NCBI GenBank assembly: GCA_009772895.1
Contig: WOUP01000005.1
Span: 62,001-126,000, forward strand
Direction: 5' to 3'
Source of the DNA: Puniceicoccaceae bacterium 5H
GTDB lineage: Bacteria > Verrucomicrobiota > Verrucomicrobiia > Opitutales > Oceanipulchritudinaceae
DNA length: 64,000 nucleotides
Each line of letters begins with the position of its first letter. Position 1 is the first letter of the stretch. Shown in pieces: positions 1,883-36,961 of this stretch. The notes under the pieces were generated by a model that saw only the letters and a program-made list of their open reading frames with translations, did no database searches and was not told where the DNA came from. The translations under genes were made by a program, and so were the position numbers.

Positions 1883-4225
1883 ATGCCATCTTCGTCTCCT
1901 GACAATCGACCGCCCGGCGTCCTGATGATCCAGATCGACGCCCTCGCCCGCCATCAGCTACAGCGGGCGCTTCGCCGTGGTCGCATGCCTTTTCTCCGCC
2001 GCCTGCTGCACGACCAAGGTTACCAGCTGATGGACCACTACTCCGGCATGCCCTCGTCGACCCCTGGGGTGCAGGCCGAGATTTTCTTCAAGGAAAAGAG
2101 CGCGGTACCGGCCTTCAGCTTTTACGACCGCGAGGAGGGCCGCGAGTTCCGCATGTATCAGGCGGAATGTGCCTCCGCCGTTTCCAAACGTATCCGCGGC
2201 GTCGCCGAGCCCTTGCTGCACGGCGGCTCGAGCTATTCCAACATCTACTGCGCCGGCTCCCTGCGTCCGCGGTTCTGTGCCCAGGTATTCGGTCCCAAGA
2301 CCGCCCTTAAATATGCCAGCCCCGGCACCTGGAGCAGCCTGCTGACGAAACAGCTGAAGCGCACGTCCAAGGTGGCCTGGCTTGGCCTGATGGAGAGCGG
2401 TCTGGCGCTGTCCGACGCCGTCCGCGGCTCGATGGACCTGCGCGAGCTGCCCAAGGAGGCCATCTTCGTGCCGGCGCGCGTCTCGATCTGCATCCTGCTG
2501 CGGGAGATCATCCGTTATTCGGTCATGCAGGACGTCGCCGAAGGCCTGCCCATCGTCCACGCCAACCTGATCGGCTACGACGAGCAGGCCCACCGGCGAG
2601 GCCCCAGCTCCCACTTCGCTCACTGGACGCTGCGGGGGATCGACAACACGGTGCGCGACATGGTCAAGGCCGCGGAGAAGAGCGACAAGCGGCGCTATCG
2701 GGTTCTGATCTACTCAGACCATGGCCAGGAAGACACGATTTACTACGCCCACGAGACGGGCCGCGAGCTCGGCCACGTGCTGAAGGAGATCAGCGGCGAA
2801 GAGCCTACCGACGAGCCGACCGAGCCCGTGAACATGTATCACGAGCGTGGCAGCCGCATGTTTGCCGGCTCACCACGCGAAGAGGGGCCCGACCCGCTCA
2901 ACGGCGTGCGCCTCTGCTCCATGGGACCGCTCGCGCAGGTCTACTGGCCGAAGATTCCTTCCAGCGAGCAAAAGGCGGCCTACGCCAAGCAACTGGTCGA
3001 AAACCATAGCGTGCCGTGGGCCCTCTACCGCACGGGGCGCGACGGCACGGTGCGCGCCGTCTCTGCCCGCACAGGAGACCAGCCGCTGCAAGACGTGCGC
3101 GATGCTCTTTGCGGCCCGCACCACCCCTTCCCCGAAGCAGTGATCCGCGACCTCGACTACCTCGTGCGCACGCCGCAGGCCGGCGACCTGGTGTTGAGCG
3201 GCTGGCGCCACTGGGCCAAGCCGATGACCTTTGCCAACGAACACGGCAGCCACGCTGGCCCCGGTCGACACGAGACCCACGGCTTTGCCCTGCTGCCGCC
3301 CATCGTGCACATCAAGCGCCCCTACCTGCGCCCCAGCGACCTGCACGACATCGCGCAGCACCTGCGCCATCAGGAAGAAGTCACGGATACCCGCATCCCC
3401 CGGATCGCTTTGCGCGCGCCGGACGAGGCCCCCAAGAGCATCAATGTCGGCAACATTCCCACGCTCGAACGCGCCTATCCGGCCCGTCGACTGCGCGTGA
3501 TGACCTACAACGTGCACCATTGCCAGGGCATGGACATGCGGCTGGACCTGCCTCGGGTGTCCCGGATTATCCGTCGCTTTGCCCCCGACATCGTAGCCCT
3601 GCAAGAGGTCGATGTGGATGTCGAGCGTTCGCGCCGGACGCACCAGCCGCAGGACATTGCCGAGATGCTGGGCTACCACCACGAGTTTCTGCCGGTGCGC
3701 CCGCAGGGCGGCGGCAAATACGGCATCGCCCTGCTGAGCCGCGAGCAGCTGAAGGTATGCCGCGCCGCCAATTTCGACCAGGGGACCGAAGACGCCAAAC
3801 GCGAAATCCGCGGCGGCCTTTGGGTGCAAGTCGAGGTCGAAGGCCAGAAGATCAACATTTTCAACACCCACTGGGGCCTCAATCCCGGGGAACGGGTGCG
3901 CCAGGCCAATCAACTGCTCAACAGCCATTGGCTGCAGCAGGTCGACGAGGATGAGCCGGTCGTGATCCTGGGCGACTTCAATGCCCTGCCCGAGACGGAA
4001 GCCTATCAGGTGATGTCGCGCAAACTGCGGGACGCCCAGCTGGAGCTGCCCCACCACGCGCCCTTGCCGACCCTGCCTTCCCTCAAACCGGTGGCCCGGA
4101 TCGACCACATCTGGATCTCTCCCCACTGGAAGGTCCGGGCCATTGCGCGCCCCACCGATCGACAGACCCGCCTGGCCAGTGATCACCTGCCCCTGATCGC
4201 CGATCTCGAGCTGCAACAACCATGA
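1883..4225 (+). CDS. Fusion: alkaline-phosphatase-superfamily phosphodiesterase + endonuclease/exonuclease/phosphatase domain
   Basis: A 780-residue protein with two unrelated phosphoesterase folds. Residues about 10-500 look like a nucleotide pyrophosphatase/phosphodiesterase of the alkaline phosphatase superfamily: an early metal-site Asp in MIQIDALARH, a likely nucleophile region MPSSTPGVQAE, GYDEQAH, YSDHGQED and late metal ligands in HGSHAGPGRHETHG. Residues about 536-775 form an EEP domain: MTYNVHH, ALQEVD, VILGDFNALPE, RIDHIWIS and SDHLPLIADLEL, so its catalytic Asn/Glu/Asp/His set looks complete. No signal peptide is evident, suggesting a cytoplasmic protein. The stop overlaps the start of the next gene by ATGA, so the membrane VTT protein is probably co-translated. 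Substrates are unknown; lipid or nucleotide phosphodiesters are possible. Confidence 0.85.
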   Translation: MPSSSPDNRPPGVLMIQIDALARHQLQRALRRGRMPFLRRLLHDQGYQLMDHYSGMPSSTPGVQAEIFFKEKSAVPAFSFYDREEGREFRMYQAECASAVSKRIRGVAEPLLHGGSSYSNIYCAGSLRPRFCAQVFGPKTALKYASPGTWSSLLTKQLKRTSKVAWLGLMESGLALSDAVRGSMDLRELPKEAIFVPARVSICILLREIIRYSVMQDVAEGLPIVHANLIGYDEQAHRRGPSSHFAHWTLRGIDNTVRDMVKAAEKSDKRRYRVLIYSDHGQEDTIYYAHETGRELGHVLKEISGEEPTDEPTEPVNMYHERGSRMFAGSPREEGPDPLNGVRLCSMGPLAQVYWPKIPSSEQKAAYAKQLVENHSVPWALYRTGRDGTVRAVSARTGDQPLQDVRDALCGPHHPFPEAVIRDLDYLVRTPQAGDLVLSGWRHWAKPMTFANEHGSHAGPGRHETHGFALLPPIVHIKRPYLRPSDLHDIAQHLRHQEEVTDTRIPRIALRAPDEAPKSINVGNIPTLERAYPARRLRVMTYNVHHCQGMDMRLDLPRVSRIIRRFAPDIVALQEVDVDVERSRRTHQPQDIAEMLGYHHEFLPVRPQGGGKYGIALLSREQLKVCRAANFDQGTEDAKREIRGGLWVQVEVEGQKINIFNTHWGLNPGERVRQANQLLNSHWLQQVDEDEPVVILGDFNALPETEAYQVMSRKLRDAQLELPHHAPLPTLPSLKPVARIDHIWISPHWKVRAIARPTDRQTRLASDHLPLIADLELQQP

Positions 4226-4872
4226 GCAAGCAGTGGGTCTCGCGCATCTTCTGGGCCCTGTTGGCCGCCGCCCTCATCGGGCTTGGCGTCTATTTGTGGC
4301 AACACCACAACCTGACGGAGCAGGACGTGCAAGAGTGGGCACGCTCGGCGCATCCGCTCTGGGTCATCGGCATGATCCTGGTGCTGCCGATGTTCGGCTT
4401 TCCTATCTCGATCACGCTCTTCATCACCGGCGTGCGCTTCGGCTTCGGCTGGGGCATGGCCATCGTCACACTGGTCGTGCTGCTGCAGCTGCTCGCCGCT
4501 CTGCCCCTCGGTCGCGGGCCGCTGAACAGAGTCGCCCATAAATGCTTTGGCGACCGTGTGCACGCATTGCGCAATGCCAGCACCCGGAGCCAGGCGGTCA
4601 TCACCTTTTTTACCACGCTGATCCCCGGGCCGCCCTACATCGGCAAGATCTATGGGCTTGCGGCGGCGCATGTGCCCCCGTCCATCTATCTCGGCATCGG
4701 CTGGCCCATCTTCGTCATCACCGCCGTTCCGCTGGTGGGGCTCGGCGGCGCGGCCTTCAACGTAAATGCCGATCGCATCCTGCTTTTCGTAGCGCTGGCC
4801 GCGCTCCTGGCCCTGGGTCTGCATTGGGTCCGCAAGCGCTGGGGCGGCAAAGCCGTTGCGAATGCAAGTTGA
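4222..4872 (+). CDS. VTT/SNARE-associated (TVP38/TMEM64-type) membrane protein
   Basis: A 216-residue polytopic inner-membrane protein. The N-terminal helix (about 8-26) is followed by a VTT-type core with FGFPISITLFITGVRFG-like helical hairpins, a central GP-rich stretch PLGRGPLNR, the segment TTLIPGPPYIGKIYGLA and a C-terminal helix (about 190-206). DedA/TVP38 relatives are implicated in lipid scrambling or transport and envelope homeostasis. The gene overlaps the phosphodiesterase fusion by four bases, which suggests that the two act on a shared membrane substrate; that is inference. Family assignment rests on pattern resemblance. Confidence 0.75.
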   Translation: MSKQWVSRIFWALLAAALIGLGVYLWQHHNLTEQDVQEWARSAHPLWVIGMILVLPMFGFPISITLFITGVRFGFGWGMAIVTLVVLLQLLAALPLGRGPLNRVAHKCFGDRVHALRNASTRSQAVITFFTTLIPGPPYIGKIYGLAAAHVPPSIYLGIGWPIFVITAVPLVGLGGAAFNVNADRILLFVALAALLALGLHWVRKRWGGKAVANAS

Positions 4873-33422: not shown

Positions 33423-34136
33423 ATGTTTCAGCACATCGTGATTTTGACCGGCTCGGGGATTTCGGCGGAATCCGGCATCCGCACCTACCGGGGCGATGAG
33501 GGCCTGTGGGAAAACCATCGGCTGGAAGATGTCGCGACGCCGGAGGCCTTTGCCGCCAATCCGGACCTCGTCTACCGCTTTTACAACGAGCGGCGGCGAC
33601 AGCTGAAAAGCCCCGAGATCCGCCCCAACCCCGCGCATGAGGCCATTGCACGCCTGCAACGCGAGTATCCGGGCCAGGTTGCGCTGATCACGCAAAACGT
33701 CGACAATCTGCACGAACAGGCCGGCAGCAAACAGGTCTGGCACATGCACGGCGCCCTCACCCGCGCACGTTGCACCGCCTGCGAGCAATCACGCGCGTGG
33801 CATGACGACCTGGATGCCTCCCACGCCTGCCCGGATTGCGGCCAGAGAAGCACCCTGCGGCCCGACATCGTATGGTTTGGCGAAATGCCGATGGGCCTGG
33901 AACACATCGTCGAGCAAGTCGAACACTGCGACCTCTTCATCGCCATCGGCACCAGCGGTGTCGTCTACCCGGCGGCCGGCCTCGTCCAGATCGCCCGTCA
34001 ACAAGCCCTCGCCCACACCGTCTGCCTGACGCTCGACCCGCCGGTCAACGAACACCAGTTCCACGACTACCAGCAAGGCCTCGCCAGCGAACTCGTGCCC
34101 CAACTCGTCGACGCCCTGTTGGCCGAAGAGAAATAG
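33423..34136 (+). CDS. cobB: Sirtuin-type NAD-dependent protein deacylase
   Basis: A 237-residue Sir2 protein starting MFQHIVILTGSGISAESGIR. It has the NAD loop GSGISAESGIRTYRG, TQNVDNLHEQAG, the catalytic His in WHMHGAL and four zinc Cys residues (RCTAC, then CPDC). The Tyr and Arg in YRFYNERRRQ match the class III (CobB/SIRT5-like) desuccinylase signature. A start at 33372 would add 17 untypical residues. Last gene of the pyr-thiL-tsaE chain, 52 bases after tsaE. Confidence 0.93.
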   Translation: MFQHIVILTGSGISAESGIRTYRGDEGLWENHRLEDVATPEAFAANPDLVYRFYNERRRQLKSPEIRPNPAHEAIARLQREYPGQVALITQNVDNLHEQAGSKQVWHMHGALTRARCTACEQSRAWHDDLDASHACPDCGQRSTLRPDIVWFGEMPMGLEHIVEQVEHCDLFIAIGTSGVVYPAAGLVQIARQQALAHTVCLTLDPPVNEHQFHDYQQGLASELVPQLVDALLAEEK

Positions 34137-34149
34137 GCAGGTAGCAGCC

Positions 34150-34252
34150 TTAGCCACAAAAAGCACACAAGACACAGAAACCCCAAAGAAGTAACGGTAG
34201 ACGCAAGCAGACAGGGTTCCCCCTTTTGTGTCTTTTGTGCCGTCTGTGGCCC
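34150..34252. repeat. Copy 1 of a ~105-bp repeat that carries its own inverted arms
   Basis: Begins TTAGCCACAAAAAGCACAC and ends TTTTGTGCCGTCTGTGGCC. The two ends are imperfect inverted repeats (CCACA-4-GCACA-1-AAGACACA on one side, the complement on the other). The middle reads AACGGTAGACGCAAGCAG then a GGGTT and C-run. It lies just 3' of the sirtuin gene and before the GxxExxY gene, and matches copy 2 at 34716-34821 almost throughout. Confidence 0.9.
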
Positions 34253-34339
34253 ATCCAACCCTGCTTCCAGCCCGAAACAAGAAGAAAAGTCTGTCCATCC
34301 TGATCCGCACAACTTTTGCTAAGTAGCAGAGATCTAACG

Positions 34340-34705
34340 ATGAAGATGGATCAGCTTGTAGACATGGTTCGGCAGACGGGTTACGAAACGCACGTCTATT
34401 TCAAGAACGGCTTTCTGGAGAAAGTCTATGAAAACGCCCTCGCAAGAAGGCTTCGCGTCCAAGGGCTTGCGGTCTCCCAGCAACACGCCCTGACCGTTTA
34501 CGACGAAGACGGCTCCATCGTGGGCGAATATCTTGCCGATCTACTGGTTGAAGACTGCCTGATCGTCGAGTTAAAAGCCGTCCGGGCACTAAATGACATG
34601 CACACGGCGCAGGTTCTCTCTTATCTCAAGACTTCACGTCTCAAACACGGCATGCTGTTGAACTTCGGTGCGCCCAAATTTGAAGTACGCAAGCTGGTCC
34701 TGTGA
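34340..34705 (+). CDS. GxxExxY-family protein
   Basis: A 121-residue protein with the family motif GFLEKVYENALARRL (GxxExxY at G-F-L-E-K-V-Y), AVSQQHALTVYDEDG, GEYLADLLVEDCLIVELKAV and LNFGAPKFEVRKLVL. The D-x(n)-E-x-K-like LLVEDCLIVELKA arrangement resembles a PD-(D/E)XK nuclease core, but this is only suggestive. The gene fits between two ~105-bp repeats (64 bases upstream from start to repeat end region and 11 bases downstream of the stop). An in-frame start at 34316 is possible. Function unknown. Confidence 0.88.
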   Translation: MKMDQLVDMVRQTGYETHVYFKNGFLEKVYENALARRLRVQGLAVSQQHALTVYDEDGSIVGEYLADLLVEDCLIVELKAVRALNDMHTAQVLSYLKTSRLKHGMLLNFGAPKFEVRKLVL

Positions 34706-34715
34706 AAAGATTATT

Positions 34716-34821
34716 TTAGCCACAAAAAGCACACAAGACACAGAAAATTCAAAGAAAAACGGTAGACAGACGCAAGCAGGCACGGGTTACCCCTTTTGTG
34801 TCTTTTGTGCCTTCTGTGGCC
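34716..34821. repeat. Copy 2 of the ~105-bp repeat with inverted arms
   Basis: Direct repeat of 34150-34252, starting TTAGCCACAAAAAGCACAC and ending TTGTGCCTTCTGTGGCC. Differences from copy 1 are a few substitutions and short indels, such as an extra AGA in GGTAGACAGACGCAAGCAGG. It starts 11 bases after the GxxExxY stop. Confidence 0.9.
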
Positions 34822-34850
34822 AATATCCCACCTCCTTCCGCCACCACGAA

Positions 34851-34878
34851 ACAAGGCACCGATCTCGCGACCGGTGCC
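34851..34878 (-). terminator. Probable terminator of thrS
   Basis: On the minus strand, stem GGCACCG/CGGTGCC with a 10-nt loop is followed by TTGTTTCG, about 55 bases past the thrS stop. Confidence 0.6.
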
Positions 34879-34889
34879 TGGAAAGCTTA

Positions 34890-34912
34890 TCTGTCTTTTC
34901 TGCCTTCTCTGG
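34890..34912. repeat. Third, degenerate copy of one repeat arm
   Basis: TCTGTCTTTTCTGCCTTCTC then TGG matches the right arm of copy 2 (TGTGTCTTTTGTGCCTTCTG then TGG) at 20 of 23 positions. All three differences are G to C in TGTG/TGTG-like words. It lies 21 bases from the thrS stop. Confidence 0.55.
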
Positions 34913-34933
34913 TAAAAGAAGAGGCGGCGGGTT

Positions 34934-36775
34934 TTACGCCTTCTCTTCGAGCACGGGCAGGGCCTTCTCCGCGATTTGCTCGAGGATGAGCCCGATGGCT
35001 TCGTCAGCGGGTTTGGCGCCGTCGTGGGCCTTGTTGACGCGGCTGCGGATGGTGACGTTGCCCTCGGCGGCTTCGTTTTTGCCGATCACGAACATGTAGG
35101 GCACCTTCTCCATCTCGGCGCGGCGCACCTTGGCCCCAAACTTGTCGCTATGGCTGTCGATGCTGACGCGGATCTTGGCTGCCTGCAGCTTCTTCTGCAC
35201 TTCCTGCGCGAATTCCAGCTGGTCGTCCGTGATCGGCAGGATGCGCACCTGCTCCGGCGAGAGCCAGACGGGGAAGTTGCCCGCAAAGTGCTCGATCAGC
35301 ACGCCCGTGAAGCGCTCCAGCGAGCCAAAGGGCGCGCGGTGGACCATCACCGGACGGTGCTCCTGGTTGTCGGCGCCGATGTAGCTCAGCTCGAAGCGCT
35401 CCGGCAGGTTGTAGTCGACCTGCACCGTGCCGAGCTGCCACTCGCGGCCGATCACGTCCTTGACCACGAAGTCGATCTTCGGGCCGTAAAACGCGGCTTC
35501 GCCCGGTTCCTCATTGTAGGGCACGCCCAGCACCTGCACGGCTTCGCGCAGCGCCGCCTCGGCCTTGTCCCAGGCTTCGGGACGGCCGACATACTTGGTG
35601 CTGTCCGGGTCGCGCAGGCTGAGGCGCACACGGTAATCGTTCATGCCGAGGGTGCCGAAGACCTTTTTCACGAGGTCGAGGCAGCCGTGGATCTCACTCG
35701 CCAGCTGATCTTCGGTGCAGAAGATGTGGGCGTCGTCCTGGGTAAAGCCGCGCACGCGCGTCATCCCGTTCAGCTCACCGCTTTGCTCCCAGCGATACAC
35801 GGTACCAAACTCCGCCAGGCGAATCGGCAGGTCGCGGTAGCTGTGGCGCTGGCTGTCGAAAATCTTGATGTGCATCGGGCAGTTCATCGGCTTGAGCAGG
35901 AAGCCGTCGACCTCACCCTTGTCCACCATGTTGCTCAGCTGCGCGCAGCTGCAACCCTCGTGCGCCAGGTGTTCCAGCTCGTCGTTTTCGACGATGGGCG
36001 TGAACTGGCTCTCCTTGTAATACGGGAAGTGACCGCTGGTGCGGTAGAGCCCGAGCTTGCCGATGTGCGGCGTAAAGACCTGATCGTAGCCCTGCTGGCG
36101 CAGCTCTTCGCTGATGAAGTTCTGCAGCTCCTGCCGGATGATGCTGCCCTTGGGCGTCCAGAGCACGAGGCCCTGCCCCACCGCTTCGTCGATGTGGAAG
36201 AGCTTCTGCTCCCGGCCCAGCTTGCGGTGGTCGCGTTGCTTGGCCTCCTCGAGGTTCTTGAGGTAGGTCGCCAGCTCCTCCTTGTTCGGAAAGGCCGTAC
36301 CGTAGATGCGCTGCAGCTGCTTGTTCTTTTCGTCGCCGCGGTGGTAAGCCCCCGCGATGTTGAGCAGCTTGAACGCCTTGACCTTCGACGTGTATTTGAC
36401 GTGCGTGCCGGCGCACAAGTCGATGAACTCGCCGTTGCGGTAAAAGCTGATCTCCTCGCCCTCGGGGATGTCCTCGAGGCGACCCAGCTTGTAGCGCTCC
36501 TGGCCGATCTTCTTGATCAGTTCGATCGCTTCGTCGCGAGAGACTTCCTGGCGCTCGAAGCGCTGGTTCTCCTTCACGATCTTTTTCATCTCGGCCTCGA
36601 TTTTCTCGAGATCTTCGAGGCTCAACTTGTGGTCGAGGTCGATATCGTAGTAAAAGCCGGCGTCGGTCGGCGGACCGATATCGAGCTTCGCCTCCGGATA
36701 AAGCCGGAGAATTGCCGTAGCCAGAATGTGCGACGCCGAATGCCGCAACTCTTCGAGCGGAGTCATCTGTTTCAT
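34934..36775 (-). CDS. thrS: Threonyl-tRNA synthetase lacking the TGS domain
   Basis: A 613-residue class II synthetase that charges tRNA-Thr and edits Ser-tRNA-Thr. The protein starts directly at the editing domain, LRHSASHILATAI (editing His residues), with DLCAGTHV and HRGDEKNKQLQRIYG. It continues with the class II core: LKPMNCPMHIKIF, YRWEQSGELNGMTRVRGF, FYGPKIDF, MVHRAPFGSLERF, then an anticodon-binding domain. The ~60-residue N-terminal TGS domain of E. coli ThrS is missing: upstream codons to 36928 do not resemble it. No T-box leader is seen. It converges on the GxxExxY region. Confidence 0.95.
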   Translation of the reverse strand: MKQMTPLEELRHSASHILATAILRLYPEAKLDIGPPTDAGFYYDIDLDHKLSLEDLEKIEAEMKKIVKENQRFERQEVSRDEAIELIKKIGQERYKLGRLEDIPEGEEISFYRNGEFIDLCAGTHVKYTSKVKAFKLLNIAGAYHRGDEKNKQLQRIYGTAFPNKEELATYLKNLEEAKQRDHRKLGREQKLFHIDEAVGQGLVLWTPKGSIIRQELQNFISEELRQQGYDQVFTPHIGKLGLYRTSGHFPYYKESQFTPIVENDELEHLAHEGCSCAQLSNMVDKGEVDGFLLKPMNCPMHIKIFDSQRHSYRDLPIRLAEFGTVYRWEQSGELNGMTRVRGFTQDDAHIFCTEDQLASEIHGCLDLVKKVFGTLGMNDYRVRLSLRDPDSTKYVGRPEAWDKAEAALREAVQVLGVPYNEEPGEAAFYGPKIDFVVKDVIGREWQLGTVQVDYNLPERFELSYIGADNQEHRPVMVHRAPFGSLERFTGVLIEHFAGNFPVWLSPEQVRILPITDDQLEFAQEVQKKLQAAKIRVSIDSHSDKFGAKVRRAEMEKVPYMFVIGKNEAAEGNVTIRSRVNKAHDGAKPADEAIGLILEQIAEKALPVLEEKA

Positions 36776-36961
36776 GGGATTTTTCGGGTTGGCGAGCTGC
36801 CCTACAAACGGCAGGACGCGAAAGCGCCTAGCAAGCCAGTACGCCCCCGCCTCTGGCAAGGGAAAAGGTGGAGCGCGCCAGCGCCAAAACAACATGAGCG
36901 CATGCAGGCTTGCGGCTCGGCACGACAAGCCTCACGTTCACAGGCATCGATCTTGGCGACC

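Follow-up and report, generated by a model that had tools for sequence, protein, structure and literature searches.

A small gene in the 64-kb stretch of DNA analysed here (the window), which codes for a GxxExxY protein, leads us to favour with moderate confidence a minimal mobile element, in which the gene of a PD-(D/E)XK nuclease is bracketed by inverted arms of iterated words that the protein would recognise. To a broader statement we give even chances, namely that such elements, spread through many bacterial phyla, make up an undescribed class of mobile DNA: a stand-alone PD-(D/E)XK protein would read its own 7-bp end words by a residue-to-base code and the six words of an element would change together with the protein. 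The evidence was computed and comprises the architecture of gene and arms, the sharing of words, the covariation of word letter 3 with residue 7, occupied and empty sites, gene-less hairpins and conserved catalytic residues.

In the window, the gene lies between a sirtuin-type gene (+, ends at 34136) and thrS (34934-36928, -). It is bracketed by two direct copies of a repeat of about 105 bp each (34150-34254 and 34716-34824), in which both end blocks (41 nt) are 93% identical and the middle is 79% identical. Each copy forms a hairpin (Table 1). In hairpin 1 each arm holds three word repeats of about 9 nt around a centre of about 44 nt; hairpin 2 has the same words and centre, stands in direct orientation relative to hairpin 1 and begins 8 bp downstream of the gene's stop codon. 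One arm is made of the three ~9-nt repeats TTTTGTGTC TTTTGTGCC TTCTGTGGC, and the partner arm is its inverse. Only these two hairpins exceeded the threshold when the 64 kb were searched for inverted repeats, and a scan for triple-word hairpins found the same two and no others. Both are predicted to fold, on 4/4 strands, better than 200/200 dinucleotide shuffles (z -3.5 to -7.0). Alignment and inverted-repeat scan hence bear out the two direct repeats with inverted arms that the original prediction had seen around the gene, and the RNA fold that it had proposed as a check returned stable predicted hairpins, beating all shuffles.

Table 1. Features of the GxxExxY locus (positions within the window).
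Feature	Position	Strand	Details
Hairpin 1	34150..34254	.	left arm 34153-34179 (GCCACAAAAAGCACACAAGACACAGAA), right arm 34224-34250 (TTTTGTGTCTTTTGTGCCGTCTGTGGC)
GxxExxY gene, 121 aa, predicted PD-(D/E)XK nuclease fold	34340..34705	+	TIGR04256, PF13366, conservation, AF2 model
Hairpin 2	34713..34826	.	arms 34713-34745 and 34794-34826
Third arm, putative remnant end of a TTTTCTG-word element	34885..34918 (approximate)	-	minus strand ACCAGAGAAGGCAGAAAAGACAGATAAGC; aligned to G055

The encoded protein matches TIGR04256 (E 1.4e-34; 118.9 bits, above the curated cut-off of 35) and, as its sole significant Pfam match, PF13366 (PDDEXK_3; E 2e-31), and with the G24-E27-Y30 motif present it is a member of the family. 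The start codon given by the profile is the ATG at 34340, the TTG at 34316 merely beginning the longest open frame. Among 48 relatives, G24, E27, Y30, D67, E77, K79 and Q91 are invariant or nearly so. The AlphaFold2 model of the protein (pLDDT 97.1, pTM 0.89) has a PD-(D/E)XK fold, so that structure prediction supports the nuclease-like core originally suspected. Its best match among solved structures is Cas4 SSO0001 (Z 9.4; Foldseek 4ic1 E 4.9e-4); other restriction-like nucleases also match, for example Hjc with Z 6.7, where values below about 8 may mean just a common fold. Based on the modelled core fold and the conserved D67, E77 and K79, we assign the protein to the PD-(D/E)XK superfamily. 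Catalysis is probably retained, because D67, E77, K79, Q91 and the glutamate of the GxxExxY motif are so well conserved in these relatives. The PADLOC models gave no match for GxxExxY, absence from this library being weak evidence, and the defence, phage and solved-structure sequence libraries that we searched gave no useful match.

The third arm of the window lies beside thrS. It matches (87%, over 30 nt) the left arm of a GxxExxY element that stands at the same place in G055, a genome of the same genus. There, the gap between thrS and the sirtuin gene contains a GxxExxY gene that is 75% identical to ours, lies in the opposite orientation and has TTTTCTG words. The original prediction had described the third arm as differing only by G-to-C in three words: the G-to-C change indeed recurs at an identical position in each of them, and the first word additionally carries a T-to-A change. 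From this alignment we read the third arm as the remnant of a TTTTCTG-type element. An older element with these words would have occupied the site between thrS and the sirtuin gene and left one arm in the window; the present TTTTGTG-word gene with its two hairpins may have replaced it, or may have arisen from it via inversion and word change.

Searching the source genome with BLAST, and thus counting dispersed hairpins by similarity, we found the 105-bp unit at 3 places only. Besides the window, TTTTGTG arms occur in a cluster flanking cysS (contig C34) and as one copy on contig C16, neither place having a GxxExxY gene. At cysS (G000:C34:89989-92131; L013 ~2490-4650), several hairpins are located on both sides with no GxxExxY gene nearby, and they comprise at least three word types (TTTTGTG, TTCTCTGG, CTCTGCGG), partly as inverted copies of each other. 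The genome has two additional GxxExxY genes. The one on C22 adjoins recQ and its flanking repeats use a different word, CGCAGAT, while for the one on C18, beside gyrB, no flanking arms were detected. By themselves the 3 places would have suggested a local oddity; it was a sequence-free detector that showed the generality. The originally proposed BLASTN check therefore delivered the extra copies in the source genome, but alone it would miss the generality because the repeats elsewhere keep the architecture and not the sequence.

GxxExxY loci were sampled from the window's order and from many phyla. The gene is present in 61 of the 132 genomes sampled from the order and also in many phyla; a GxxExxY gene is annotated as well in a large virus of the alga Chrysochromulina parva (PMC12085832, Table 1). 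Near these genes strong ungapped inverted repeats are 3-4-fold denser than further off, and nearly all of them consist of a short word at a 9-10-nt step, the word differing per locus. A detector that knows nothing of the sequence, looking just for 7-mers that occur as three similar copies with steps of 8-11 nt, found a three-word arm at most 600 bp from 109/150 GxxExxY genes, about 12 times the background density. When upstream and downstream arms had also to be inverted copies of each other (score of at least 52), such paired arms were detected at 79% of 151 GxxExxY genes versus 0.7% of 408 control positions, which lay 3-4.5 kb away and were treated identically. Among genes fetched afterwards as a held-out set, 61/82 have paired arms, and among S23 genes from the same order 3/25. 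Two S23-protein genes with paired word arms (L307 and L308) may adjoin or sit inside a GxxExxY-type element. No arms are detectable at about 20-25% of the GxxExxY genes, the C18 gene being an example, and the window's own gene scores just 56.6 because its left arm is degenerate. The originally suspected link between repeat and GxxExxY gene is consequently strongly supported and general: other GxxExxY genes do have such repeats, with the architecture conserved and the sequence not.

A typical unit of about 500 bp consists of an upstream arm (CACNNNN x3), the gene and a downstream arm (NNNNGTG x3). The arms measure about 28 bp; the upstream arm usually stops no more than some tens of bases from the start codon and the downstream arm terminates in G[TC][TA]AA. 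Beyond the outer word, inverted identity falls to background within 5-8 nt. All six copies in one element have a common word, which differs from element to element with the overall preference [CAt]T[CT][CT]G[TC]G, and the word steps are identical in both arms in 132/151 elements (26 expected). In some elements an ATG located at the outer edge of the upstream arm can open the reading frame (L118, 1964-2020), and translation of the word repeats would then yield a variable N-terminus. Arms in alternation also form tandem arrays (L067, ~1700-5900 bp from its gene; L138; L143; L035), with steps of ~49, 183, 174 and ~224 bp and a word that matches that of the resident GxxExxY gene.

Occupied and empty sites are seen in Halomonas, where an element of about 503 bp fills the gap between two sugar-biosynthesis genes (L117, L099), while the orthologous gap measures 22-33 bp in G188, G201, G197 and G180, with flanks that are 80-88% identical. 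A gene-less hairpin that is absent in relatives lies in the operon's next gap, and more hairpins are found at other gaps of this operon. This hairpin type has 6 and 5 matches in the two gene-bearing genomes, all within about 3 kb, and among genomes without the gene it was found in 1/8, weakly; gene-less hairpins are thus few and clustered rather than dispersed. Two Dolichospermum genomes have, at other loci, elements that share 83-84% identity with the L118 element, and the homology stops at the arms. At the site orthologous to L118, G143 and G217 contain a short footprint of both outer words and the gene is gone. When L350-L353 are compared with L118, the sequence to the right of the element is wholly different from about 8-12 bp past the arm, which puts the element at a rearrangement breakpoint. 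Orthologous sites both occupied and empty, the same element at different loci and gene-less hairpins together support the mobile cassette or group of miniature repeats that the original prediction had considered; part of the presence/absence pattern could be due to loss. For 149 elements and lengths of 2-14 we obtained no signal of a target-site duplication, and we discounted, as too weak, a possible imprecise duplication of about 13 bp at the site in Halomonas. In two cross-phylum pairs, L111/L120 (Nitrospirae/Planctomycetota) and L080/L130 (Chloroflexi/Planctomycetota), the proteins are about 80% identical and the word is the same, which suggests recent horizontal transfer.

The word goes along with the protein. 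Protein similarity correlates with word similarity (0/500 permutations were as strong), a correlation that inheritance alone could produce. Whether letter 3 of the word is C or T depends on the residue in alignment column 7 (V7 in the window's protein), where helix 1 begins; this column reached z 14.8 against a mean of 0.3 and sd of 1.7. Thr is found there solely with C: counting downstream arms alone, in 47/71 C words versus 0/54 T words, and at held-out loci in 11/23 versus 0/17 (p=8e-4). The upstream arm never overlaps profile-matched codons, so the link is no coding coincidence. On a tree built without column 7, letter 3 changes 24 times, and among path-disjoint pairs 13 changed in step, 0 were opposed and 10 were unchanged. 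The pairing of letter 3 with residue 7 is the top result of 294 column/residue tests (7.7 versus 0.6 for the runner-up); corrected for these 294 tests the 13:0 result stands at 0.07, borderline by itself without the held-out check. Restricting the analysis to strongly supported branches left 5 pairs, of which the differing ones all point in the same direction, a number too small for significance. Together, these data make a direct reading of letter 3 by residue 7 likely. Letter 1 and residue 94 are associated more tightly by count (held-out 40/43), yet with just 5 and 2 changes on the tree; this link splits along one or two old branches and may reflect common descent, and we set it aside as evidence for a contact. 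For word letters 4 and 6 the column/residue tests on the tree indicated no clear single residue.

From these data we infer that the GxxExxY protein binds the words, cuts the ends and thereby causes the movement. The element would consist of one gene, coding for a PD-(D/E)XK GxxExxY protein of about 120 aa, between inverted arms of ~28 bp whose words lie about one helical turn apart. The protein would bind the arm words, perhaps with one protomer per word and helical turn, and when bound it may repress its own start, since the upstream arm ends nearby. It would cut at or near the element ends, and repair or strand transfer would then insert the element, or gene-less hairpins derived from it, mostly locally and without leaving a recognisable target-site duplication.

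We regard it as unlikely that GxxExxY is instead a nuclease of the restriction or defence type, with the arms as its operators or self-marks and the protein binding the words to repress its own start and perhaps protect the locus. The upstream arm does lie close to the start codon, restriction enzymes and Cas4 are among the distant structural relatives, and the patchy distribution of the gene would follow from ordinary horizontal transfer plus homologous recombination. But this leaves the mirrored downstream arm, the gene-less hairpins and arrays with the same word and the homology that ends exactly at the arms at different loci unexplained, and PADLOC has no matching system. We consider it quite improbable that the hairpins are integron-like joining or shuffling sites between cassettes, with GxxExxY as the cutting enzyme. 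Hairpins in successive gaps of one Halomonas operon, a cysS flanked on both sides in the window's genome and a Dolichospermum right flank that differs per genome from about 10 bp beyond the arm would fit such shuffling; the operon order is unchanged in relatives without hairpins, however, and in the element we found no gene for a recombinase.

An RNA-forming element served by the protein had been part of the original prediction, and arms that pair in a transcript as antitoxin, guide or processing signal would account for the stable predicted hairpins. A transcribed stem is expected to favour one strand in its mismatches, but the arms contain 62 G.U mismatches on the gene strand versus 78 on the other (p=0.2), Rfam gave nothing at gathering scores, and each arm repeats its word, something that pairing would not require. 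We therefore rejected the structured RNA as highly improbable, and since no strand is preferred we read the arms as DNA sites. It is hardly more credible that the repeats are those of some other, unrelated mobile element, with GxxExxY as its passenger or preferred landing site. Gene-less hairpins without a neighbouring GxxExxY gene in the source genome (C34, C16) speak for it, whereas the bracketing frequencies of genes and controls, the covariation of word and protein and the near-absence of the hairpins from genomes without a GxxExxY gene speak against it.

The mobile element that we favour resembles known systems in part. In RAYT (TnpA-REP)/REPIN systems, as two papers describe them, a nuclease gene is accompanied by inverted palindromic repeats, cognate non-autonomous hairpins are located elsewhere and the repeat type tracks the protein type (PMC3116915, PMC8266576). 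The GxxExxY gene is likewise flanked by inverted cognate repeats, there are gene-less hairpins and the word goes with the protein. Measured against these same descriptions, an HUH (Y1) transposase stands there in place of the PD-(D/E)XK protein, REPINs are dispersed in high copy while GxxExxY hairpins are clustered (3 places in the source genome, within 3 kb in Halomonas), and the GxxExxY ends consist of three iterated words that differ in sequence between elements. Because protein fold, iterated-word ends and the few local hairpins differ, the GxxExxY element would follow a REPIN-like logic and yet be no member of RAYT/REPIN, as far as these sources go. Like IS elements and MITEs, it has a single gene between inverted ends and gene-less, internally deleted derivatives; unlike IS elements, it has no DDE or HUH transposase and no target-site duplication signal, its ends are iterated words and it measures only about 500 bp. 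The fold and the D...ExK residues are those of Cas4 (SSO0001), Hjc resolvase, TnsA, restriction enzymes and PD-(D/E)XK homing endonucleases, none of which, to our knowledge, acts alone on inverted iterated-word ends that flank its own gene. S23 genes for 23S rRNA intervening-sequence proteins (PF05635) are similarly small and abundant in the same genomes, but 22/25 are without such arms. In open-licence papers we found none that links GxxExxY, TIGR04256, PF13366 or the words to repeats, and a description elsewhere is possible.

The GxxExxY family is almost unstudied, and it would gain a function if the protein reads its own ends. If our interpretation is true, it adds a class of mobile elements built on a nuclease fold that is not known to act alone in this way, it accounts for period-9 intergenic repeats in environmental genomes, and it provides about 150 natural protein-DNA pairs for learning and testing the rules of sequence specificity. 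That six words per element change in concert raises the evolutionary question of how the copies switch together.
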